From: Cudoniella acicularis
Lineage: Eukaryota > Ascomycota > Leotiomycetes > Helotiales > Helotiaceae
NCBI GenBank assembly: GCA_013054445.1
Contig: JAAMPI010000076.1
Location: forward strand, 1-64,000
Length of the DNA stretch: 64,000 nt
Direction: 5' to 3'
Both the position numbers and the translations under genes were made by a program. This document shows, one piece after another, positions 583 through 62,362 of the stretch (its first letter is position 1; each line of letters starts with the position of its first letter). A model generated the notes under the pieces. The model was not told the origin of the DNA, did not search any database, and saw only the letters and a list, made by a program, of their open reading frames with translations.

Positions 583-1608
583 CTATGGACCGAAACTTCC
601 TTCCTCTTTTTTCGGCACGATAAAGTCTTCAAGGGGTGTCGGGATTGTTTTCGTGTTTGTCCATGCATGGAACGAGTCCCAATCAATGCATTTACGATCC
701 CATGCAGTAACACCCACATACCCTAAAGAGGCTCTAGGTTCCCATTGCATGGTATTAACTGTCAAGTCCGGTTTGCACATGAGGCCTTGTCGGAGAACCT
801 CCATGCAGTGTTCTGTTGGCAGAAAAGGCTAAGTCAACTAGGATTTCTTCACATGTTAAGGAATCTGATAGACGTACGAAAGTGCTCCATGGTAAATGAC
901 CCCGCAAGGTCCGAGTAGTACTCTTTGTAGTTCATTTGATACATTCGTTTCTGGGGGGATTTAGCGAAACTGCACTAAAATTTCAACCACAGCTAATGAC
1001 GAACCAAGCAATGGAGCTGGTGGTATACTGCGTAGTAACCAACATAACCACCAGTTTCTTTGATCGCGATTGAAGACTTGTTCATTATCTTCATATCCTG
1101 TGCTGAAATTTCAACCATGCTCGCTGGTGACCAGTTAGCCAATACCGTTTACAGAGGTCCAGACCAAGACGTACATTCTGTCAAGCCCGACCATGCTTCA
1201 TCCAACTCCGGGCGTGGCTCGCCAAAGAATGGACTCAACTCAGTTGCTGTTAAATCAAGGCTCTGAATTTTGTATTGAACAATAGCATGAGCAGGAGCTT
1301 CGGATTGAGTTAGCACCTGTACGAAAACCAACAAACTAGAACGGTGGTAAGTTATTTTACTCACAGTACGGCTCCTCAACCTCTTCTCGAGCGAACTGTA
1401 CTTTGATTTCGCATGAGTGGAACGTATTGAAGATTAGCATACTGACGTTGAGAGCCAATAAAGCTGCTTGCACAATGAGAAAAATGAAATAGCCCTTCTG
1501 CAGATTAATCCGTGAGGAGTATTCTTTCTGAGAGTTGTAAGCCTCATCAGAAGCGCTTTCAACGCCGGCCAGGAACGGCTCCTCCTCATTCTTCTCACTG
1601 ATGGTCAT
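583..1608 (-). CDS. UstYa/DUF3328-family protein A (5 exons, 262 aa)
   Basis: Proposed exons on the minus strand are 1365-1608, 1175-1297, 1005-1123, 878-950 and 583-812, totalling 789 nt and closing in frame. The ATG at 1608 is chosen because the open frame upstream has no ATG. A cytosolic head is followed by one membrane segment near residues 33-55. Then come the family landmarks: YSPA after the first intron, PRPELDEAW, the first His-Cys motif YHQLHCL, and the second motif HCMEVLRQ followed by a conserved Cys. Intron 1 ends at CCGAAG, just after a GCTAAC branch site. Known UstYa proteins are type II membrane oxidases that cross-link ribosomal peptides (ustiloxin, phomopsin, asperipin) or cyclochlorotine-type products. 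Here the gene is next to, and on the same strand as, a repeat-peptide precursor, so a role in macrocyclising that peptide is inferred. The third intron donor (GTTCGT) is the weakest junction. Confidence 0.88.
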
Positions 1609-3180: not shown

Positions 3181-3744
3181 CTACTGGTCCTCAACAACAT
3201 CCTAGAGACAGATATCAGTAATTCGCGTACTGTCAAAAATTGCAAGAGGCTCAAGAGCAGGGACGTACAGCCTTATAGTAATTCTGGAAGAGTGCGTCCA
3301 AGTTGTTCTCGGAACGCTAATCTCAAATTAGCCAGAAGCATTGAAAGGGTTTTCCAAGAGATTCTGTATACTTTTTTCTGATCCTCAACAACGCCCTAAA
3401 CACTATTACTTCTTGATTACATTGGAGAACAGATAATTTGATGAGCAGGGACTTACAGCCTTGTAATAATTTTGGAAGAGGGCGTCCAAGTTGTTCTCGG
3501 AACGCTAATCTCAAATTAGCCTAAGATATTGAACGATCGTTCAAAAGGAATTCGGTATACTCTTTTCTGATCCTCAACAACGTCCTAAACACCGTCGGTT
3601 TCTTGGTCAGTCTGGAGAATAGATACGAGTGGAGACGTACAGCCTTGTAGTAATTCTGGAACAACGCGTCCAAATTGTTCTCTGAACGCTATTCTCCGAT
3701 TAACTTGAGGTACTAAGAAATTGTTTGAACAGGATTTGGTATAC
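3181..3744 (-). repeat. Three tandem intron-containing repeat units (about 186 bp) in the precursor gene
   Basis: Anchors such as the CGCT at the 48-nt exon edge recur at 3315, 3503 and 3687, spacings of 188 and 184 bp. Each unit holds a GTATAC-type intron, a 48-nt exon, a GTACGT/GTAAGT-type intron and a 24-nt (or terminal 21-nt) exon. The spacing is not a multiple of three, so no single frame reads through. Only the spliced product shows the protein repeat. Confidence 0.92.
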
Positions 3745-3822
3745 CTTGCTTTCTACTGGCATTGGGGCTGCGGCTGTAAGGGCAGCGGCCATAGCAATGA
3801 AGCAAAGTTTGGAGAAATGCAT
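3181..3822 (-). CDS. Secreted repeat-peptide (RiPP, dikaritin-like) precursor, 7 exons, 96 aa
   Basis: Minus-strand exons are 3745-3822, 3641-3688, 3561-3584, 3457-3504, 3372-3395, 3269-3316 and 3181-3201: 291 nt, six phase-0 introns of 55-67 bp. Exon 1 starts at an ATG with AAAA before it and encodes a signal peptide (MHFSKLCFIAMAAALTAAA) ending in P-M-P-V-E-S-K. The three 48-nt exons each encode RSENNLDALFQNYYKA. The two internal 24-nt exons encode DVVEDQKR and GVVEDQKK, and the last exon encodes DVVEDQ and the stop. Splicing places KR, KRR and KKR exactly at the start of each repeat, so Kex2-type cleavage would release three near-identical 21-residue peptides with a Tyr-Tyr pair. Donors are GTATAC (introns 1, 3, 5) or GTACGT/GTAAGT (introns 2, 4, 6), and acceptors are all NTAG. 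The secreted, Kex2-bounded repeat layout beside two UstYa genes matches fungal dikaritin precursors. The product is unknown, and I recognise no described core. Confidence 0.92.
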
Positions 3823-6545: not shown

Positions 6546-7145
6546 GTTCCCAACGATTGGCTGTGATGACCTGTAACTTGCCAAGGGATACAAAGTAGCG
6601 GATATTTCGGGAAGTTAGTATAGGTGGGCGATGACATTTGGTAAATTGGACATTGTTCTAGCAGTAGTGGTAGATAAACTTTCAAGCCAAATTGTTACAG
6701 CACTTTTTTAGCGTTTATTACACGTGCACCTCCTTGTAAAGTTTCCTATAGATGCGCACCTGACTATAATCCGCTTATATTTCACTCTTCCAAAGTCTTC
6801 CTACTTGCTCCCAGAGGTTTACACGCTTTACTCCATATCGTTATAGCATATAATAGCCCTTCAATTGTAAGGCAGGAATCCCTTAGAAACTCGGTATTCT
6901 AAAACTCTAATGCCCGCCGTGCCTTTCAGTTGGATCCTACTCGATCATGCGCATGCCCCGCCTTTAACGACGGCACCCGCTTTATCCCAGGGTTTGCATA
7001 TGTCGGCTATATTCGATAAGCCTATCTCGTAAAAAAATTTAGTCAAAGGTGTCAGCTCGTTTAATATTTTCTCGCATACCAGCTTTTAACCCCCTCCTCC
7101 CCCTTTTTTTTTTGGCTCCAGTCTAGCAGCAGTAACTAGGACAAA
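6546..7145. other. Intergenic region upstream of the GNAT gene
   Basis: About 600 bp with no gene seen. A poly-pyrimidine stretch with a run of T (about 7090-7113) lies 30-50 bp upstream of the GNAT start codon, as is common in fungal promoters. Confidence 0.4.
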
Positions 7146-7950
7146 ATGTCGTATTCCATCCAACTAGCCACAGAAGCCGATCTTCACGAAATGACGGAGG
7201 TAATGGTTGCAGCGCTATCAGACGATTCATGCTGGCAAGGGATGAAAGGATCATGGACAGATAAGGAAGAATATGAGTTCACGCTTGAGACTCTACGAGT
7301 GAGTATGAACGGGTCTCAGGCAGGGGCATATAAGTGTTGGAAGGTAATTGATAAGAATGGGTACCTCTACCTAATTTTCATACGAGATAGGATCTAATGA
7401 ATTGGTAAAGGAAAATTCTCGCCTGGGCTGGCCTCGGGTATCCCAGCTCCCTTGGGGAAGAACAAAAGAACTGGGTTATAACTACAACTACATATCAAAT
7501 CCCACCAGGTCGAAACCAAAAGATCCTCGAATTCTTCCGTAATTCGATCCTGCTATTACCGATGAAACATGGATATGATAACGCGAAACACTTCCGTAAG
7601 TATCCGGCTTCTTCTTTCTCTGAGGAAATTAACAAGAATAATTAGAGCGACAAAATATTATGGTTTGTCCAGAGTATCAACGCCGAGGATTAGGTCGGCT
7701 CCTTACAGAAAAGTGTAATGAGGTTGCCGATGCTAGTAGGGCAGCTACGTATGTGAGAGCTCAATCTAAGGCTGCGGGGCTTTTCATTCAGATGGGATAT
7801 GAGGTTCTAGAGAAGATTGATTTTGATTTATGTGATTTTGGCGCTAACCTTAAAGATGGGAAGACCTCTGTTTTTGTTATGAAGAGAGAGCCAGGTGCAA
7901 AAGAGCAGCAGGGAAGAAGATTTCCAGATTGGATTGAAGATGAGGTCTAG
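7146..7950 (+). CDS. GNAT-family N-acetyltransferase (3 exons, 234 aa)
   Basis: Exons are 7146-7360, 7411-7595 and 7646-7950: 705 nt, in frame. A GTGAGT inside exon 1 looks like a donor, but the frame stays open past it. The junction at GTACCT...TAAAG restores K-N-G-K-I-L-A-W-A-G-L, the second strand of the GNAT fold. The acetyl-CoA binding motif A is V-C-P-E-Y-Q-R-R-G-L-G-R-L-L near residues 138-151, followed by the usual F-I-Q-M-G-Y-E-V (residues about 180-187). It is a fungal GNAT of the small-molecule or peptide N-acetyltransferase kind. The substrate cannot be read from sequence. It is co-oriented with and 600 bp downstream of UstYa-like B, so it may be a tailoring enzyme of the peptide locus, but position is the only support. 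Confidence 0.85.
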
Positions 7951-8419: not shown

Positions 8420-9780
8420 CTATAGCTGTCGTAGTCAGTCGCTAAGCACATAGTCGTCGATCAGAAGACACTAGTCCCACACTCCTTAGCGCCTGAATTC
8501 CAAGACGACGTAGACGCCCGGGGCCGAGCCTTTGGCGAGGAAGACTGACGTCGAGCTGCCGGCAGAGCCTTAATCTATGCTTGTAGAGAGGATTCTAGTG
8601 GCGACTCTAGCCCTAATAGCGATTCGGACAGCGGCATCCCGTACGACTCGGATACTAGCGTCGACCCTGACCAGACCCCTAAAAAGCTAGCCTAAAGGCC
8701 TATAGTCCGACGAACGTTTAAGTGAGATACCTAGACTAATCTCTAAAAGATAAAAAACAACTTAGCTAGAATCGTACGAATTAAAGAGACCTCTTACCAG
8801 AGGAAGCGATACCCTAGACTGTCTAAGCCCTAGTAGCCAACTATCGACATTACGGCAATTAGTACTCTAGGAACTCACTTTAACCTAAAGCGTCCTAAAA
8901 ACGAGGCCTTTATAGCCGGCTCATACGAGATCGATTAAGTCTTTTAAGAACGAGATAGTACTACTCTTCTTAAGCCCGGCTTAGAAAGCCACGAAGACCT
9001 TAGCTTTGTCTTAGAAGCTTATTTAGATTACCTCGATGTTTTTTTCTAAGACTATATCAGACGTTCTACCTCTATACCGCTCGTACGACTATAAAATCGA
9101 TCTTAAAGCCGATAATAGTCTGGGATATTGTTATAGACCTAGTTCGACGCCAGGATAGATTAACTTAATAATAGTCAACTTAATGACTTGATTCGACGCT
9201 CGTCGATTCAATGACTTAACGACTGACCGANTNACTCACTATCCAGGGGANTCGCTTACGGACTNCNTCGCTTACTAGCGCTATTTNTNTAGTTAAATAG
9301 AGCTTCTCNCTCNNNGAGAACCTCTTCTTCTCTCCTTAGTTTAGTCTCTTCGATAATANAGCACCTTCTTNNAAATACGTCCCNACGTGACGTCAGGGCC
9401 CTAGTGCCTTTGCAGAGCCGTAACAGATNATAGACNNAGTNNTAGANANACNTTAATATCTTAAAGCTAAACTAGCCTCTATAATCGCTAGATCTTTCCC
9501 TAATTAAGAATTTATAGAGGTATATTAAGAATATTCTAAGTAGGAAGAGATACCTGATTAAAAATATCACTAAGATAGAAATAGAATTAAGAGAGTTATA
9601 GCCTAAAATCAGTATTAATTTCTTAGTTAAGTTAAATAAAAGTATATTACGGCGTTTAGATATATATATTTAAAACAAAGGAAGGGCTATAAAGTATTAG
9701 AATAGCTTTAAAATTGCCTAAATTAGAAGTGATTTGACCTTGTCGTTCTTAAGTTATAAGTGTTTAAAGTGAGGGGGGTC
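8420..9780. mobile_element. RIP-mutated relic of an unidentified element, with ambiguous bases
   Basis: A frame running from 8588 to about 9050 on the plus strand stays in register for more than 150 codons and is broken only by TAA, TAG and TGA. This is the pattern expected when CAA/CAG/TGG are hit by repeat-induced point mutation. It begins with an acidic Ser/Asp-rich stretch. I do not recognise the family. Scattered N bases between 9231 and 9452 suggest a collapsed or unresolved repeat. From 9450 on the sequence becomes AT-rich with no open frame. Confidence 0.55.
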
Positions 9781-17149: not shown

Positions 17150-20100
17150 GTTTAAGATGCTTAAGTTTAAGGTACCTATCAATTTTCTCGGCACGGTAGG
17201 TTTCTCGCTACGTAGGGACGGACGTTAGTTAATTATTTTTATTCCTATCTTATCTTATTATATACTAGTAGTCAAAGTCTTTACTAGTATAGAGGGGAAG
17301 TGTAGAGGGACGGGAGGCCTCTAAAATAGAAGACAAAAACTGATGACTGAAAGACTCGAATCTCTAGGAAGGATGGTTGTTGTTCCTCTCTAGGAGAGGG
17401 GGAGAGACCTTATATACATGAATATAGTCACGTGCTACGGCACGTGACACAGAACCCCACTACAGAAGCCGGTTTTATAAGCGACTGTAGGCACTGATTA
17501 AATATAGTCAATTACCTATGTCAATAACGGACTAATTAAGCTACTACTCTATAATTATCTTATTACTCTAGATACTCGTGTCTTATTAGGTCTTAAAGTT
17601 CGGCGCGGAGGCAACTAGACATCTGTTCTCTCTCTCCTTATTAAAACTTTATAAAACAATTATATAAGTAATAGCTCGCTGTTTATTTATAGCTATAGAC
17701 TAGTTACTAGCGTTATTATTAAACGTAATTAGCTCTTTCTTAATATTACTCGTATTAAGAGTAATATTTAGTATATTAATAAACTAGTTACGATTAAGTA
17801 GACAGGTATAGGGAATTAGGACAAACTGCCTATTAAATCTAGTATAACTATCTACTTAGAAGACATTAGGGTTAGTTCTAATAACCCTAAACTCTAAGAC
17901 AAGTGTCTTATTAACCTCTTTCTAATAAGGATAGACATTTATAGAGATTAGAAGAATAAAGACTATAACTAAATTTATAGTTATAATACGAGTTTTTCTT
18001 TTATATATAAGAATAACTTAAATTAAAATAATAGAAAAGAGATAGAGAAATAGATATAAATTATTCTTAGATTATAATTATTTAAATATTATAAATAGTA
18101 AACTTAGATAGTTTATATTTATTAATAGAATTATTAGCTTTTAAAAGCCTTTTTCTAATATATTTCTATTTTTATTATACTATATAATAGCTAAGGCTAC
18201 GCTATACTATAAGAAGAATCTATCTTAAGAGATTAAAAGATTTATTTTTAAAGAGATCTTATTTAGGCTTCTTAAGAGCTAACTTAGCCCCCTTAAATAT
18301 AGTTATATAGAATTAATAACTTTCGTATAATAGAACTAAATAATAAATAAATTATAATTAGTTATTAAAAAGAAAAGCGAGGTTAAGTAGCGCCTAAATA
18401 GAGCGGCGACGCTAACTAATTATATTAGAAATAATATAATATTAAAATAATACTAGTATTTTAATAATATTCTAAAAGCCTATTTAGGTCCTTATTACCC
18501 TAGCTACTATACTACTAGGGTTAAATAAATATAGGCTAGAATCTATAGCCTATCTCTATTTATTTTAAAAGTTTTTAGTTTTAATATCTTATAATATAAA
18601 TATTATAATTAATTAAGGCTTTATTATTTAATGTTTTAGAAAAAAGATAAAGTCTTTATCTTAATAAAAGACTATAAAGATTATTAAACGACTAATTAAG
18701 ACTTATTAATCAACTCTAAAAATAATAGAGTCTTTTAAATAAAAGATTAAAAAGAAGACCGCTAAATAACTTAAGAATAAAAACTTTTATTAATAAATTA
18801 TAATATTTAAAATAAAAAGAGATATACTTAAAAGAGAATTTAGCGCTAATGCCTTTATTCTAATAAAGTAGAAAAGAAAGCTTATAATTTATATTTCTTA
18901 TACTTTTTTTAACGATCTTTAATAACTCTTTTAACTAGAAGATATTACTAGATACTATCTCTTACTAGTAATTAAGACATCTAATATATTTAAGAGTTAT
19001 AAAAAAAAAATAAAAAAATTATATTATTAATTATAAAAAGAAGGCGTTAATAAGTAAAGAAGTTACGTATAAAAAGAAAAAAGATTTAGTATAGAACTAA
19101 TCTCTAGCCCTAGGGGGTCTAGAGAAGCCCTCTTTTTATTAGCTATCTGTTACTAATAGGGGTCTAATATTAAGGCCTAATAATAATAGAAATTAATAGT
19201 ATTATCTAGTATCTCGTGTTACGTATTAAGTGTTTTAGAACTATAATCCTAGATATTAGAAGTTTTATTACCGATATTATTCCGGATATCCGCCGTCGAT
19301 CTAAACTACGTGACGGGCCCCCCCCCTAGCAGGTAAGCGAACTATATTATATTAATATTCTAAATAAAAGATATAAGGCTAAAAGAAGAGATAAATTAAA
19401 TAGTTATATAGATAAAGTTTAATAAAATAGTTTTTAAATATCTAATTTATTCTTTTTTTATATCTTTTTCTAGTTTATATTATAATCTAATCTTTAAATT
19501 CTATAATTCGTTTATAGCTTATAATAGTTTTCTTTTCTTAGGAATTCTTATTCTTAAGACATCTTATCTACTAAATAAGATATTTAACTCTTTTATCTTA
19601 TACTCGCTTTTTAAATAAATCTATTCTTAAATAGTTTTCTTTATAGATAGCCTTAAATACTTTAATAAGCTCTAGGCTTATATCTTTTACTTTTTATTAG
19701 ATATTATCTTTATATAAAAAACCTTTCTATTTTATAAAATATTAAAATAGTTTTATCTTGTTTTTATTTAATAAATAATATTTTAGCCTACTATATTTCG
19801 CCTACTCCTTAGTTACTACTAAGCGGCTATATTATTATACTTTCTATATATACTAGTTTATCTTTTATCTAGAAAGATTAGAGCTATAATATAGAGATCA
19901 GGCTTTTAAAGAAACGCTAGAATATATAGCTTATTATAAGATAAGATCGATTATAAAAGGATTAATAATAGATTATTAAGATAATAGTAGAGTCTAGGTA
20001 TTATTATTAATATCGTCTCTAGATTCTTTTAGAATTTCTTAATCCCCGCTAATTAGGCTTATTAAGCATCTTATAAGTATTATAACTATAGCTTTTAAAC

Positions 20101-22470
20101 TATTAATCTTTTTTCTTTTCTTCTTAATAATATTTATCTAAATACTAGATAACGGTTCTACTCTTATAAAACTAGATAAGGCGACGCTAGACCTACTAGT
20201 TATAAAGTATTAAGAGATCTTATTATAACTTAATTCTATTTATACGCTTATTATCCTAGTTATATTTAAAGGAAAGTCGTTATTAGAACTCGAGTATAGT
20301 ATTATAAGTATAATAAGATCTATATTATTAGACTTAAGGTTTATAACTAAATAATTTATAAAATTATAATAAAATATATTATTTAAAGGCTTAGACTTAA
20401 TCTCGTAATATCTATCCTAATCAGGTTTAGGGCTAAAGATAGAAGTTCGTCGCTTATCTTAGAACTATAGCCGTTTTAGCTTAGGCTTATTAATATCTGA
20501 CTTTATTCTTAAAATATCTAATTAGCTTTCTAAATCAAGTCGACGGTTCTTTTCTATATTAGATATATTAATAGAATAATAATCTTAAAGATAAGGCTAT
20601 ATATATTAGTCTAACTCGAGTATTATACTATATAAAGAACTATATAGATATTAGATTATCTTAATATAATTAATATTCTAGATATCTTTTTATATATATT
20701 TCTAAATATATTATAACTATTAAGCCTAGTTTATAAACTAATATATCTATTAAATAGTAGGCTATTATAATTTATAAAGATATCTAGGATAGTGTCTAGT
20801 ATAGGTAAAGATATAGTAGAAAGTAATAGGGTTATACTAGAGAGGTATATTAAATCTATTAATATAACCTTAGTAATAAAGCTTTTAGTTAGCCTTATTT
20901 ATAATCTATTTATTATATTTAAAATAATATATAATAAACCTATATCGTCTTTTAAGATTAGCTTTATAGTAGCGATATATATAATTCTATTAATTAATAA
21001 TAGAGATATTAATATAATATAAAAGAGTTTATATTAATAATAAATAGAATAGAAGTTAAAATAGAAAAGGACTAACTAACCTTTAAATCGGCTATACGTA
21101 ACTAGACACTAGATAGTAGTCTAATATAGGCCTTAGTACTAGCTAGTATACGACTTAATAATCGTCTTTATAGAGTATAATAAGGTTCTAAAGAATAGAC
21201 CGGCCTTTAGGGCTATAGAGAGAGACTAGCTAGAATAAGATATATATTAAGCGGTTATGTTTAGGTATTATATAATAGATATAGTTAAAGAAAGAGTAAT
21301 AATAATTGTCTTAACTAGGTTTATAAGTATTATAGGACTAGTGATTTTAAGATTAGCTCTAGCGGCGCTTTTTTAGCTCTTCTAGAATAAGCCGCTACTA
21401 TTCTTTATATAGTTTATATCGTTAAGTTTAAAGCTCTCGACTAGCCTCTTTATTAGTCGTCTTAATCTCTTTAGTTAGGTTATTAATCTGTTCTTTAAGA
21501 GCGACGATATCTAGTTAGCGTTTAAGCTTATATTATATCTATACTAGTAGTGACTACTAGAGCTTAGGATTATACTATATAGACATCCTATAGAAGCTCT
21601 TAAGATAGTCTTTTTAGAACGACTGATTTAAGAAGTTATTTTATCTATCTATACTCTCTTTAGCTATATAATGTATTTAGAATACTTTAAGACCTAATTA
21701 TCTAAAAAACTTTATTAGTTTTATATCTATATAGCTGTTTACTTATTATAAGTTAGCTAAAAGTAATCTAGGAGATAAGAAGAAGCTTATTATTCGTTTT
21801 AATAAACGCTTTATATCTAATAATATAGATAATATAATTTAAAAAGCTATTTTATTAAATAGTATTTAAGAGTTATCTAATATATATAAAAGCCTTTTAG
21901 ATCTTTCTAGTTAAACTATTATATAATATAGCTTAAAAAACTAATAGCGATTTATAATCCTAGCTAAGAGCCCCCTAAATCATAACTAAAAACCTCCTAG
22001 ACCTATAAATCGACTTTATATAGTCTAGATAGCACTTTTCGTTAACCCTCTATATAATCTAGACTCTACTATCCTTCCTAGTATTAAATATAGCTTCGTC
22101 TGACTAAATGACCTTCTGCTAGTCTCCTCCTAAGTTGCCGTTATCCCTGTAGGCTATATAGTCCGATGTCCCCTACCACCGGTGTTCCCGTGCGAAAGCT
22201 AATTGCTTCTTAGCTTATACCCGTGATATAAAGGGCTAGAGGCATATAATACAGCGCTAGTAGCTATACTTTCAAAGTTCTTGTCAAATAGTACGCGTAG
22301 AGGCTACGATGCCTAGTTACTAGTAGACCTACTCAAAGGTTAAGCGACAGGTACTATGATTTCTTATAATATAATAGATAATTTGGTATATTAATCGAAT
22401 AGACAATAATAACTAATAGTACTTCTTACCTTTACACGTAGTCCTACTCGATTTATCTTTATAGATCGAC
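17150..22470. repeat. Very AT-rich, RIP-like block without genes
   Basis: About 5.3 kb dominated by TA-rich words (tatta, aataat, ctattat, ttaga) with stops in all frames and no credible open frame. The one 76-codon ORF at 20792-21022 is composition-driven. This is how heavily RIPed retroelements look. A run of C at about 19319-19326 and the more GC-rich patch at 17280-17470, which contains TCACGTGC and GCACGTGACA, are probably less-mutated LTR or edge sequence. No element family can be named from what is left. Confidence 0.65.
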
Positions 22471-28416: not shown

Positions 28417-31400
28417 TTATGCCTTCGCATCCCCTGTTTGCGTCTTCGATTCTGTAGAAGCAGTGATACTCTTCTTCTCCTCCGTGTCTGTCGTGTTTTC
28501 ATTGGCCTTTGTGCCATTAGTTGCGGTTACGCCATTCTGTGTTGGCTTAGGAGATTCAGCCTTAGGTTTTAGGATAGTCTTGTCTTTCACCAGCTTGATA
28601 AGGTAGTCTCCAGTGTCGCCTGCGCCATCTAAACCACCAATTTTTGTCTTGAAGTGTTCTGCATCGCGAAGCATTCTGTTTTGAGTATAAGCACAATTCT
28701 TTTGACCAAAAGTGGGAAAATGAAACATACCTTTGTTGAGCTGCTTCGCTCCCCAGGGTCACATCACCGAAAGCTTTCCCCCATTGCTCTTTATAGCTCT
28801 TGAATACAGGCTGCATAATCATACGAACTGTCATGTCTGGAAGATATTTGCTGAGAACACGATGCAGAGTGCCAGTTTCTTTTGTTAACGTCTCCATGTA
28901 GGGATTGACACCCTCCTTCCCCCCTCTCTCCCAGTCAATGGTCTTCATCGACTTTGCGCGTGCAGTTGCGCGGCTAGCCATGATTTCGACTAGCTTGTCG
29001 TATATGGACTGCTGGTGTTCTAAATATGCCCGTCGTACCTTATCAAATTCACCCATCAAACTTGAGACAGCGGAGCCTGATCCTGCATGGCGACGAACGA
29101 ATTCGCGGACATGTGGAATCAAGCTGCTTATAAATGACAATGCTTGCGCTGCTAAGGCAAGATGTTTGGTGGTGATATTTTTCAACCCCGCCGAGAGAGT
29201 AGCACCAGCGCCGAGAATAAGCTGTGTACATCGAGAGTTGAAGAGTGTGAGATAAGAGAGGATCGAGGTTGCGATTTCGGAGGTCATCGATGGTATGCCG
29301 GTATTTAGGTGGAGGAAGGTAGACAGGCCATGAAGACAAAGGATGCCGGAGACTGGAAGAAGGAATGACTCGCTTTCGATGACTGCTGGTCTCGTACTAG
29401 ATTTAGATGGTGCGGCGGAAGGTGTGGAAGTACCGGAATTCTCATTGGCTTGTAAGGAGAGAACCGATGCATTCGACAAAGTGTTGGTAGTTGCTGGAAG
29501 CCATATTTTGCTCCCAGTGGTCCATGCTTCTGCGTCTTGCGTGCTTGCGGAAAGGATGCGTGTCAATGCTTCTTTGTCAGAATCCGTAAAATCTCTCGCA
29601 TCCCAAGGATCTGCTTCCATGCCAGTAGCAAGTGCTTGTCGCTCAGATTCGCCCTGCTCCCGAACGAAATCCTTGATGTGACCATTAACCACATTTTTTA
29701 ATGCTGTACCGCTTCGTCCAGAAACTGCTTCGCACTCATTTGCAAAGAGAAGATTGAGGGTGAAATATCTCAAAAATCTCTCTACCGGAAGATGCACACT
29801 CTGTTCGGACCGTACACGCAAGACCTTTACTATTTTGTCATGTGCAATATCAACGGCCTGACCTAAGAGATTTGACATGTCCAGAGTTTGATGCATTTCT
29901 TCTTGGATCTCTCGACTAGAATTTGGGTTTCCTGGAGTAGAGTTCATCCGAGCACCAATAGCTGCCATGTTTGGACTTCTTGGAGGAGATTTCATACCTT
30001 CCGGGGTCGTATCCCCAAGAGTACTCGTTACATCTAACAGTACTTTGACCTGTGTCCCAAGCCTTCTCAGAGTCTCTCCAATTCCAATGTAAATTTTTTT
30101 GAGGAGATCTTCGGCATCATCAGAATCCAATGACCGCAAGTTCCGTGCTAATATTGTGGACTTTTCTTGCTGAGATTTTTGCCTGCCGCCTCCAATTGTT
30201 GATACTGACATCATGGAATCTGCATCATCTTCGTTTGAAGCTGGCAATGGCCGGCGAACGAGATTACGTATTTCTCGTAAGACTGAGTCTCGATAAGCAG
30301 AAGTTGCTGGCGAAGTATGCCGACTTCGATGAAGACCACTTAAATTCGATAGGAGCTCAGACCTAAATCCATCGTCCAGAGCCAAGTATGATGGAAATGC
30401 AGATGGCTCACGATTGTGGCCGCCTCTTGACCGTTTAGACGTGTTACTCCATCGCTGCAGGATATCAGGGGTAGAAACAGACTCTACGTGCCGCCTTAGA
30501 TCCCCAAGGAGAGCATTTAGAAATCTTGTCTCAAATGTTTTGCCAATTCGGAAACGAAGAGTGTCAAGGTCATTCGTGACGCCTTGTAATGCCGTGGCGC
30601 CTCTTAGGTCACGAAGTTGTTTCTGGCGTTGTCCAGCCATATTTCCTTGATCTTCACCAGAGACAAGCTTCTCCAAACCATCAATTGCATCAAGCGCTTT
30701 TTCAACCTCGCCTTTATCAACTAAAGATTCGCAAGTAGCTACCCCTTCAACAATTCGTTTGAGTTGTTGAACGGCATCTCCCAGCTGTTTGAGATTTTCC
30801 CTCCTCCGTTTTTGGTTGACGATATTCAAGCCTCCAATAGCCATCTCCTCGTCTAATTCCTTCAGCTCTTTTCTCAGCGCCTTTATTTGCTCTACAGAGT
30901 CCGCGGCCTCTGAGTGAAGTTCCCGAAGTGATCCGAGGGCAGCAAAAAAGGAAGTAGAGGCATTAGATATCGAGTTTATTAAATGAACCTCAATTGTATC
31001 CATGTACCAAGAGAGCTTTTCTTGGAGGATTGCATTTGTCGCCAGAGCTTTTCGAGGACCAGCTGCACTCCCATTTTGCCCCTTCCGCTCATCAGGCGTT
31101 CCTGGTACTGGTCTTACAACCTCCGATCGTTCACTCACAACGTCAAATGTCCGCGGGTTTTCCAGGTGAAAATCGTCATCGAAATATACTGTCGGTATTG
31201 TTGATAGAGGCGTAGGCGCATGTGCTGCTCGTCTATAGGATCCCCCACTCGTCCTTCGTTTTATTGTTGGGCCTTCAATAGATGATGCTAGAGAAGCCAA
31301 GGAAGCTTTCTTCGCGAGGTTTGGGCGGCTTGATGGGTGTCGTTCCTGGTCCAGCAGATCTGAAAAATCGTCCACCTTACTACCTTTCCTTAACAATTGG

Positions 31401-31942
31401 GTTCCTCCTTCCTCCTCATTCTCTTTCGCTCGTTGTAGTGCATCATACAAAGCCCCAACTTGCGACAGATATGGCCTAAATTCTGAAGGATCGATAGCGG
31501 GTATATTCGTGAGGGCAACCGGCGGAATATCTCGAGCAGTGGGTGGTTTATGGGTGCTTGATGGTGGTGCCGAAGTGTGTGGGATGAGGCCTGTTCGAAC
31601 AATTGGTGGTTGAAGGAGGGTGGATATAGCTGTAGCTGTGATTAGAACTCACAACATCCTATCCCGACTAGAATTCTTACCATTCTGGCCCGACTCGCTC
31701 ACACCATGCCAATGTGACGCTGTATCTAATGTGCCCCCTATCGAATGTATGGAGCTAGTTGTAGACCCTCGCCGGGGATGGTATCTACCACTGGAGCCTG
31801 GTCTGCAAAGTATTAGCACTATTCTCCCTGTTGAGGACTATAACACCTATATTTACCTGGGGAAGGGGTATTCGTGTCGAGAGAAAGAGGGAGAATTAGG
31901 GGAGAGGCTGTCCACCGAATGGCGAGGGAATGGGGACGACAT
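28417..31942 (-). CDS. vps54: Vps54, GARP tethering complex subunit (4 exons, 1123 aa)
   Basis: Exons are 31857-31942, 31681-31802, 28731-31635 and 28417-28675: 3372 nt, in frame. The ATG at 31942 gives M-S-S-P-F-P-R-H-S-V-D, the usual fungal Vps54 start. A Ser/Pro-rich N-terminus leads into P-P-V-A-L-T-N-I-P-A-I-D-P. Next come V-Y-F-D-D-D-F-H-L-E-N-P-R-T-F-D (residues about 219-234), a coiled-coil region (about 310-360) and the C-terminal Vps54-like domain ending L-H-R-V-L-S-K-Y-L-P. Vps54, with Vps51, Vps52 and Vps53, tethers endosome-derived vesicles at the trans-Golgi. The C-terminal tail after the last intron is Lys/Thr-rich and looks disordered. The gene is divergent from MCM5 with a 650-bp shared upstream region. 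Confidence 0.95.
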
Positions 31943-41276: not shown

Positions 41277-42952
41277 TCAAGAGTTTTCTAAAAGAAACCC
41301 CAGTCTCTGCTCTATTCGGTCAAGTAGCAGCCACACTTTCTCATCATCCAGGACTCCTTTGTTGTAAGTCACATGTATCATACAATCACCACCCTTCAAA
41401 CTTACAACACCAAAGTACAGCATATAGCCAACACAAGACTTTGTCGATCCAACCGAAAACTCCAAATTTTTGATCCTGCAAGGACCTGCTTCTTCACCGT
41501 CTTCGCCTCCAAAATCTCCATCAAAAGCACCAAGATTTGATACGGTATACGCACGTTCACTCATGAGCCCAATAGAAGGAAGAATCTGCGCTGCAAAAGC
41601 CTCCTCATCTTCTCGAGCAGTAGCCATGACCATGAAGTCCTGAAGTGGAATCGGCGTACTTTGCTTCGTTTCTGACAGTCTATCCTTAAGCCAATCGTTA
41701 CACTTTCTTGCGAGATTCCAAAACTGCGGGTAGTTCATGATGACTCTATTTCCTATGAGAGGAGACGATTCAGAACCAGAAATTCTCAAAATCGGCGCAG
41801 TACCGACTTTTCGAAAATCGCCAACGAAAGAATTGTGCGTCATAGTGCTCGCCAAGTTTCTGAGATTGTCTTTTTGCTTCGAATAGCGTCGGCAGTCTAC
41901 CTGGGTGGCCAATATGCGATATTTGGATGACGGGTAGATGTCTGTCGCTAGAGTCACATCAATGAGCGTGGATAGCATCGCCGTGAAAGTCGTATTGTTC
42001 TTCTTGCAAGCTTCAAGACATTTTACTAGCACAGACTTATCTAGCCGTAGGCTTCGCAACACTGTCTTAGCACGGATGTCTGCTCTGCCTCGCTGTTCCA
42101 ACGGTGGTACTTTCATCGAATAGGTCGCCTCCTCGAAAAACCAGTCTTTCTTTCGGAGAATGAGCCGAAGGATAAGGAGCCAAATGCAAACCAAGACGAT
42201 TCGAATCATAGAAGCTTTTCGCTTCTGCTCTTGAAAAATGGCAACAGGATCCGCAGGTGGAGCTGCATCTGGCGTCGTTATAATCGAAGGGTTAGAATGA
42301 TTTCCACTCTTGGACACCTCATTAAGGGCAGCGAGCAAACTTTTATGAAACAAAGTCCCACCAATACCATCGCAGATACTATGGTGGAAGATGAAGACGA
42401 CATGAACATCGTTGACAACAATTACTTTCCAGAGCGGAAGCGTCCTGTCTTCGGTGTCGAACCAGTCGTTGTGTGCTTTTTGCAGAAGTTCTTGCATCCC
42501 AGAATCCGAATCATCATATTCGTTGATGAATGATACACATTTATTCAAATCAATCCTTTTCAACTTGGCCTTCCACACTCGGTGCTTCCCCGTCTGCTTC
42601 GTCGATGGTTGCGACACCAGTATCACAGAAAGATTCGGATGCTGCTCAATCACTATTCCAAGTGCCGCGAAAAATGCTTCTTTGCTCAAAGGGTTCTTGT
42701 TGAGCTGGTGATTATACGAGCCAAAGACAATTATGTTCGAGAAAAGTCCCAGCTCGTGGTAGAGCTTGTGCAGTGTGTCTCCTTGGCCTTTTTCTTTAGT
42801 CAGTACACTTCAATTTTTAACGAGGCAAAATTAAATATGTCAACTCATTACTTACCAGCCGGACGAACAAGGTCGAATTTATCTGTTTCTTCCGGTAATT
42901 GTTCTTGCTGGTTTACCGCGGTATCTTTTTTAACGGCATTTTTAGGGGACAT
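41277..42952 (-). CDS. Alcohol acetyltransferase-like (AATase/condensation-fold) protein, 2 exons, 537 aa
   Basis: Exons are 42856-42952 and 41277-42793: 1614 nt, in frame. The ATG at 42952 is followed by a charged head, then E-K-G-Q-G-D-T-L-H-K-L-Y-H-E-L-G-L-F after the intron. The acyltransferase active-site motif H-H-S-I-C-D-G lies at about residues 169-175. The C-terminal half carries A-Y-T-V-S-N-L-G-A-F, typical of the family. A hydrophobic segment near residue 225 (V-L-V-C-I-W-L-L-I-L) suggests membrane association. Relatives of yeast Atf1/Atf2 transfer acetyl or other acyl groups from CoA to alcohols and sterols. The substrate here is unknown. No biosynthetic partners are adjacent. Confidence 0.88.
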
Positions 42953-61102: not shown

Positions 61103-61596
61103 GACGATTTGGGCGATGGAAAATGCCTCCGAGTCGTTAAGAGGGCGGTGGATTGGATATTTGATTGCAAATGAGTATCAGCGTTGTTTGCGGAAGCGTT
61201 TGCGAATAACGCGTTCGTGATTGTGATCTGGTGGTGGGCTTGAATACTTTCGATGAAGGAATTATTCGATTATCAGAAGCGTTCACTGGGGGCGAGTTTG
61301 GGGCTAGGAGCCTTGGACAAAGGCGGGATGGACGGCTGCGCTTGCCCCTGGAATTCCATTCCTGCTAGGGCGCTAAACTTTAAATTCTCTAGCCCAATCA
61401 CGTGCTCAGTACCCCGCCATGGGAGGTGATCACCTGGACCACCAGTAGACCTTCCATAAGCTTCAGGACCCCCATCGCCCCTTGCAGCACACCTCAACAA
61501 GCACAAAAAGCCTCCGTTTCTCTGTGCAACCTTCGAGCAAACATCCTCTTCATTCTCTCTACCAAGACATTCTCAAGCCCAAAAGGTTCCACAAAA
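61103..61596. promoter_or_regulatory. Divergent promoter region of rpb9 and ess1
   Basis: 494 bp between head-to-head genes that both act on RNA polymerase II transcription. It contains CACGTG near 61400. No gene was seen. Confidence 0.4.
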
Positions 61597-62362
61597 ATGG
61601 TAAGTCAAGCGCTCGATTGTCGCCCATTTTTCTTTGTTTACATCCCCTTTTCTTCGCCTAGCAACAGCGGGAGCTTGCTAACGATAGTACAAGACTGACG
61701 CAGGATTGCCGCCCGGATGGGAGGTCCGCCACTCGAATTCGAAGAATCTACCATACTATTTCAACCAGTCCCAGCAGATGTCCAGATGGGAGCCTCCGCC
61801 AGGAACAGACACCGAAAAGCTCAAGACCTATATGGCTGAGAACCACAGTGCGCCTGAGATCAGACCCGAGGCTGGTGGACCCAATGGAAACGCTGCGAAT
61901 AATGGCAAGATCCGCGCAAGTCACCTCTTGGTGAAGCATAGGGATAGCAGACGCCCTAGTAGCTGGCGTGAAGTACGTTATTTACTATATTGAAGCTTCA
62001 TTTTTGCGATTGGAAGTAGAACCGGGCTAACGGAGATACAGTCGGAGATCAAGCGCACGAAAGAAGAGGCTATGAGTATCATTCTTGGCCACGAAGCTCG
62101 CATTCGAAATGGACAATCATCTCTTGGCCAACTCGCTGTTAGTGAGTCGGATTGTAGTAGCGCGAGAAAAATGGGTGATTTGGGGTTCTTTGGCAGAGGC
62201 GACATGCAAAAGGAGTTCGAAGAGGCAGCTTTCCAATTAAAGCCTGGAGAGGTCAGCCATGTCGTCGAGACTGCCTCGGGTCTGCATTTGATTGAGAGGT
62301 AAGATTTGTGGACTATATCTCACTTGGTCACTGAAAACTAACCAATTCTTAGATTAGAATAA
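61597..62362 (+). CDS. ess1: Peptidyl-prolyl isomerase Ess1/Pin1 (parvulin), 4 exons, 182 aa
   Basis: Exons are 61597-61599 (the ATG alone), 61694-61972, 62042-62298 and 62353-62362: 549 nt, in frame. The acceptor GTACAAG at 61693 is required to give M | T-D-A-G-L-P-P-G-W-E-V-R. The WW domain (residues about 5-36) has both Trp residues and Y-Y-F. The linker is Asn/Gly-rich. The rotamase domain starts I-R-A-S-H-L-L-V-K-H, carries the basic phosphate-binding loop (R-D-S-R-R-P-S-S-W-R) and G-D-L-G-F-F-G-R-G-D-M, and ends G-L-H-L-I-E-R-L-E. Ess1/Pin1 isomerises phospho-Ser/Thr-Pro bonds, notably in the polymerase II C-terminal repeat. It is complete. Confidence 0.95.

Follow-up and report, generated by a model that had tools for sequence, protein, structure and literature searches.

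A seven-exon gene of Cudoniella acicularis for a probable Kex2-processed, UstYa-modified RiPP precursor

The window, which is the whole stretch of 64,000 nucleotides analysed here, comes from the genome of the helotialean leotiomycete Cudoniella acicularis, and its first base is also the start of the contig (C1571). Near this end lies a small, intron-rich gene on the minus strand with a UstYa/DUF3328 gene on either side. The features of the region are as follows, the precursor exons being those of the spliced model.

583..1608, minus strand: UstYa-1, five exons, 262 aa, two HxxHC motifs (PF11807, E 4.3e-39)
3181..3822, minus strand: RiPP precursor gene, 7 exons, 96-residue product (spliced model and homologue P0001)
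3745..3822, minus strand: exon 1, hydrophobic leader by hydropathy, a likely signal peptide, ending ...VESK
3641..3688, minus strand: exon 2, core repeat 1, RSENNLDALFQNYYKA
3561..3584, minus strand: exon 3, follower/linker DVVEDQKR with a Kex2 site
3457..3504, minus strand: exon 4, core repeat 2
3372..3395, minus strand: exon 5, follower/linker GVVEDQKK
3269..3316, minus strand: exon 6, core repeat 3
3181..3201, minus strand: exon 7, terminal follower DVVEDQ and stop codon
5316..6545, plus strand: UstYa-2, five exons, 302 aa, two HxxHC motifs (PF11807, E 1.3e-43; hand-built model)
7140..7947, plus strand: GNAT acetyltransferase-like gene (PF13508 on the piece 7642-7947)

An earlier, sequence-only reading had proposed seven exons and six canonical introns for the precursor, and both the coordinates and the translation were reproduced on the minus strand between 3822 and 3181. 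The exons measure 78, 48, 24, 48, 24, 48 and 21 nt in order, the length of every internal exon being divisible by three, and the introns 56, 56, 56, 61, 55 and 67 nt; all six of the latter are GT...AG and in phase 0. A YTRAY branch-like motif is found 10-30 nt upstream of the 3' end in five of them, and none was present when it was looked for in intron 4. The longest visible frame, 3323-3514, which the same reading had described as covering one exon out of register, agrees with a stop-to-stop frame at 3326-3520.

The spliced product runs MHFSKLCFIAMAAALTAAAPMPVESK-RSENNLDALFQNYYKA-DVVEDQKR-RSENNLDALFQNYYKA and, after this second repeat, GVVEDQKK-RSENNLDALFQNYYKA-DVVEDQ. Its N-terminus is hydrophobic, with 9-residue hydropathy as high as 2.5, and its three identical repeats, each containing NNLDALFQNYY, are separated by Kex2 sites, the third being closed by the stop codon rather than by a dibasic site. 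Kex2-processed repeat proteins (KEPs) are defined by a signal peptide and at least three repeats of at least eight residues, each no longer than 100, between KR, KK, RK or RR (PMC7329392); here there are three repeats with a unit of 24 residues. The leader, multiple cores and recognition motifs used as a criterion for dikaritin precursors are likewise present in the model. Each repeat had been thought to begin exactly after a dibasic site: whilst the Kex2-type spacing holds, the border itself does not, as the opening R of each repeat is the second residue of the KR or KKR site, and the Kex2 product is hence expected to start SENN.... In the middle linker, the sequence DQKR-R allows two possible cut positions. 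The unmodified predicted 21-mers have a calculated [M+H]+ of 2475.13 or 2417.13.

The strongest context for the precursor is given by its two flanking UstYa genes, to which the earlier reading made no reference. UstYa-1 and UstYa-2 lie 1.6 kb and 1.5 kb from the precursor respectively, and their spliced models, set by hand with four introns each, are open; that of UstYa-1 equals the C. acicularis annotation G7Y89_g1859, itself a prediction, over 262 of 262 residues. Both neighbours provide the DUF3328 domain with two HxxHC motifs adjoining a precursor that is a criterion for dikaritins. DUF3328 proteins are described in the available text of PMC12048977 as the class-defining enzymes of dikaritins, although active in non-RiPP pathways too; two HxxHC motifs are suggested there to be a reliable mark of the RiPP-related members, and a role in the active site is suspected for them. 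An AlphaFold model of UstYa-1, made from a 19-sequence alignment and of middling confidence (mean pLDDT 71.4, pTM 0.54), predicts a long N-terminal helix (30-64) followed by a domain, with the HxxHC motifs on two helices neighbouring in sequence (154-169 and 183-198). UstYa-1 had no match to PDB sequences at E up to 1.

None of the 48 tyrosinase (PF00264) and none of the 10 S41 peptidase (PF03572) matches in the genome falls on this contig. UstYa-1 is separated from the start of the contig by 582 bases, and the cluster may hence be cut. The GNAT-like gene is a possible cluster member; its piece 7140-7394 has no Pfam match, and GNAT genes are found alongside one RiPP clan of lichens (PMC12048977). 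Elsewhere in the window, GC content measured per 500 bases falls to 19-28% across 17500-22000, the surroundings having roughly 40-46%; this AT-rich island may represent a block of mutated repeats. The 18 runs of N in the window are all confined to 9231-9452, and a Vps54-like gene (28565-31648) and an alcohol-acetyltransferase-like gene (41280-42809) are found on the minus strand.

At the DNA level, the precursor locus contains three near-copies of a unit of approximately 118 nt, spaced 188 and 184 nt apart. The 48-nt core exons differ from one another by 7, 6 and 4 bases without a single amino-acid change; these differences occupy eight variable sites and require at least nine substitutions, all of which are synonymous. 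Under a uniform model, with 0.1875 per synonymous change, the chance of such an outcome is about 3e-7, and in transition-biased simulations all changes were synonymous at a rate of 2.5e-5 (1/40,000) when seven were made and 0.004 when four were made. The remaining five reading frames of these exons vary between copies, leaving exactly one of six with synonymous differences only. The matching introns (I1/I3/I5 and I2/I4/I6) have diverged, indels included. Between the 24-nt follower exons E3 and E5 there are two substitutions, D/G and R/K, both of them nonsynonymous. Judged from these substitution patterns, the core is under selection whilst the follower tolerates change, and the feature at 3822-3181 is real and coding.

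In order to find relatives, 5.8 billion proteins were searched with the precursor, giving 1130 candidates; the search admits proteins of about 53-168 residues sharing exact words, and longer arrays could escape it. The sole match at E up to 10 was P0001 (E8E14_010639), an 85-aa hypothetical protein of the sordariomycete Neopestalotiopsis sp. 37M, and hence of a different class. A homologous repeat precursor does therefore exist elsewhere, the lack of which, together with transcript data against splicing or expression, had been named as refuting the proposal. P0001 has NNLDALFQNYY twice, with KR five residues before each copy, as well as a leader similar to that of the Cudoniella precursor, whereas its flanks are different (AETEG... 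AVPPA); the identity amid differing flanks points to NNLDALFQNYY as the conserved segment. The closest of 32 UstYa-2 relatives, at 56% identity, is E8E14_010684 of the same strain. As E8E14_010639 and E8E14_010684 are each on a 700159-bp contig, the core and the UstYa-2 relative appear to co-occur on one contig, but with locus tags 45 apart we do not claim adjacency. The search with UstYa-1 returned six matches, comprising its own gene, four relatives at 43-48% identity (from Pseudocercospora musae, Septoria linicola and two Cercospora species) and one further fragment, with no Neopestalotiopsis relative among them.

The searches gave one row for the precursor and 32 for UstYa-2, none of them named as Cudoniella, in keeping with an annotation of these genes that was missed or altered. 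The expectation that automated annotation would overlook the precursor is in this way backed indirectly, as the database does include a Cudoniella protein. The presence of the same core in so distant a fungus suggests that it probably represents a real, uncharacterised natural product.

We consider it very probable that 3181-3822 is the gene for a Kex2-processed, UstYa-modified (dikaritin-like) RiPP precursor. Sequence data show a spliced frame that is open, a core under selection, the Kex2 spacing, two intact UstYa genes with two HxxHC motifs each and the recurrence of the core in another class, and from the flanking UstYa genes, the synonymous-only divergence and the distant homologue the original proposal of a RiPP-like Kex2 repeat precursor gains support; in vivo splicing, secretion, cleavage, cross-linking, the core borders, the product and its role at this locus we infer. 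The leader would direct the precursor into the secretory pathway, where Kex2 cleavage after KR or KKR would free three 21-mers, SENNLDALFQNYYKA[D/G]VVEDQ, with EDQ-KR acting as the proposed follower. The two UstYa oxidases, predicted to be membrane-anchored, would then cross-link side chains within NNLDALFQNYY, Tyr (YY) being the likeliest site and Phe perhaps another, and trimming of the flanks would leave a small mono- or bicyclic peptide. Release, cross-linking and trimming are proposed here by likeness to ustiloxin and asperipin-2a. A survey of Kex2 repeat precursors reports DUF3328 genes near 22% of them, the immediately neighbouring position being the commonest, and finds Tyr in 65.6% of repeats with such a gene nearby against 38.2% of those without (PMC7329392); the Cudoniella precursor fits this pattern of a DUF3328 neighbour and Tyr. 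Counting against the UstYa-modified reading are the lack of a branch-like motif in intron 4, the exclusively nonsynonymous differences between followers 3 and 5, the absence of tyrosinase and S41 peptidase matches from a contig that may cut the cluster, the lack of a Neopestalotiopsis relative among the matches of UstYa-1, the gap of 45 between the Neopestalotiopsis locus tags, and the activity of DUF3328 proteins in non-RiPP pathways as well.

An alternative that we regard as improbable is that a secreted, Kex2-processed peptide stays linear, in the manner of a pheromone or hormone, and that the UstYa genes serve another product or none. In its favour, 6120 of 7878 Kex2 repeat proteins lack a DUF3328 gene within their 15 nearest genes, and mating factors almost never have one nearby (PMC7329392); conservation of the whole 11-mer would also suit a receptor ligand. 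Here two intact UstYa genes directly flank the precursor, the core contains YY, and core and UstYa-2 relative recur in Neopestalotiopsis, each on a contig of 700159 bp, all of which argues against a linear product. Kexin-cleaved repeat proteins that remain unmodified as effectors, surface peptides or wall components do exist (Rep1-like; PMC6374014), but a precursor with only three copies, an acidic follower and UstYa neighbours makes this reading highly unlikely. Equally hard to credit is a tandem DNA repeat, decayed or never coding, that reads as peptide repeats by chance: the three DNA copies and the lack of any single usable ORF at 3181-3822 would be expected of it, yet the eight variable core sites are all synonymous in one, and only one, of the six frames, which led to its rejection, and the identical 11-mer occurs in another fungal class.

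Other precursors of the Kex2-processed, UstYa-associated type were sought in the same genome, where the PF11807 profile has 146 exon-level matches. Words of 6 residues repeated at least three times were looked for in 30 loci, each 2.5-3.8 kb long, that surround the best UstYa matches (six window loci being covered as well) and in eight further 6-kb stretches; repeated words were present in seven of the 30 loci, including two overlapping pairs, and in three of the eight stretches. The arrays examined among the positives were L005, L009, L017, L018, L038, L041 and L042. One of these is a second split gene:

3255-2805 of contig C980 (L005), minus strand: intron-split Kex2 repeat precursor adjoining a UstYa gene

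It has a leader and three YPDEKLYAEEY repeats, with three phase-1 introns, one ahead of each repeat, and the 5-7 bases that distinguish its cores from one another leave the amino acids unchanged. Its sequence is unrelated to that of the 3181-3822 precursor, although both arrays are laid out with intron boundaries. On contigs C279, C1160, C368 and C1634 the repeats are consecutive in one open frame with no introns between them; these four arrays and that of C980 resemble Kex2 repeat precursors whose cores are different. The 17-kb contig C279 (L009/L029) has 13 UstYa exon matches and an array of at least five STDGPSIAIPWTKNYGEYEEKR-like units, whilst the UstYa-adjacent arrays of C1160, C368 and C1634 (L038, L041 and L042) consist of five copies of KRDDQDSAYIIQYK, three of EEVDAGLFTSLDGVWASYGYDEKK and three of DGDDKVxYTWSLPE respectively. 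Tyrosinase matches are found on C1160 at 61436-62126, about 3 kb from its array. The units on C1520 (L017) are DEDLAKYGKR-like and interrupted by in-frame stops, so that this precursor may have decayed or been misread, and repeated words are present in the array examined on C689. No paralogue of the 3181-3822 precursor was found: a DNA search of the genome matched this locus only, and a protein search matched only the three known core exons at E up to 10, being empty at E 0.001 because single exons score too low.

The type of precursor, a Kex2-processed RiPP of the UstYa kind, is already known, and diversity of cores is normal for it; what distinguishes the present example is a core conserved in two fungal classes and the recurrent layout of one intron per repeat. 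In agreement with the earlier statement that the core has not been described, LDALFQNYY, NNLDALFQ, LFQNYY and FQNYY are all absent from the texts of open-licence PMC papers, a scope that excludes figures and supplements. Nor did introns inside fungal RiPP precursor repeats figure in the titles and abstract openings surveyed, the original PhomA, victorin and GigA descriptions being outside the scope, and we do not claim that the layout is new to the literature; the word 'intron' does not occur in the available texts of PMC7329392, PMC7317419 and PMC12048977, and in those of PMC9233826, PMC6374014 and PMC9769878 it occurs in other contexts only. Cores and Kex2 followers here occupy separate phase-0 exons, of 48 and 24 nt respectively, and the C980 precursor has a phase-1 intron before each repeat; we tentatively suggest, as a possibility we do not favour, that such arrays are intron-bounded cassettes, copies of which could be gained, lost or splice-skipped with the frame intact. 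If so, this could be a fungal route to diversifying RiPP arrays, and would conceal such genes from surveys starting at annotated proteins. The kingdom-wide survey of Kex2 repeats did start from annotated proteins (PMC7329392), and would hence miss an unannotated precursor with exons of 21-78 nt; two intron-split precursors are found among the loci examined in this one genome. The locus also offers a testable RiPP core that a leotiomycete shares with a sordariomycete, and two candidate cyclases are encoded alongside.

Amongst known systems, the dikaritins of ustiloxin type (UstA, and PhomA with UstYa/UstYb) share with the Cudoniella gene a leader, a repeated core flanked by ED and KR motifs, and DUF3328 genes in the cluster (PMC6514808). 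Their core YAIG is unlike NNLDALFQNYY, however, and the five-gene definition of Ding et al., as given in PMC12048977, includes a tyrosinase, a peptidase or transporter, and a methyltransferase. The Cudoniella contig, which ends just beyond UstYa-1, has no tyrosinase match, and the repeat array of its precursor is interrupted by introns. Asperipin-2a (aprA/aprY, core FYYTGY) is likewise the product of a small cluster with a Tyr-rich core and a UstYa-family oxidase, its four genes being described without a tyrosinase in the available text of PMC6514808; it has one UstYa gene where Cudoniella has two, and the cores are unrelated. The precursor of the epichloecyclins (GigA) is likewise secreted and built of repeats, and one of the four genes in its cluster is of the DUF3328 family, but its 27-residue repeats are imperfect and kexB lies within the cluster (PMC7317419); in Cudoniella the single kexin P-domain match of the genome is on another contig (C972), and the cores are perfect copies.
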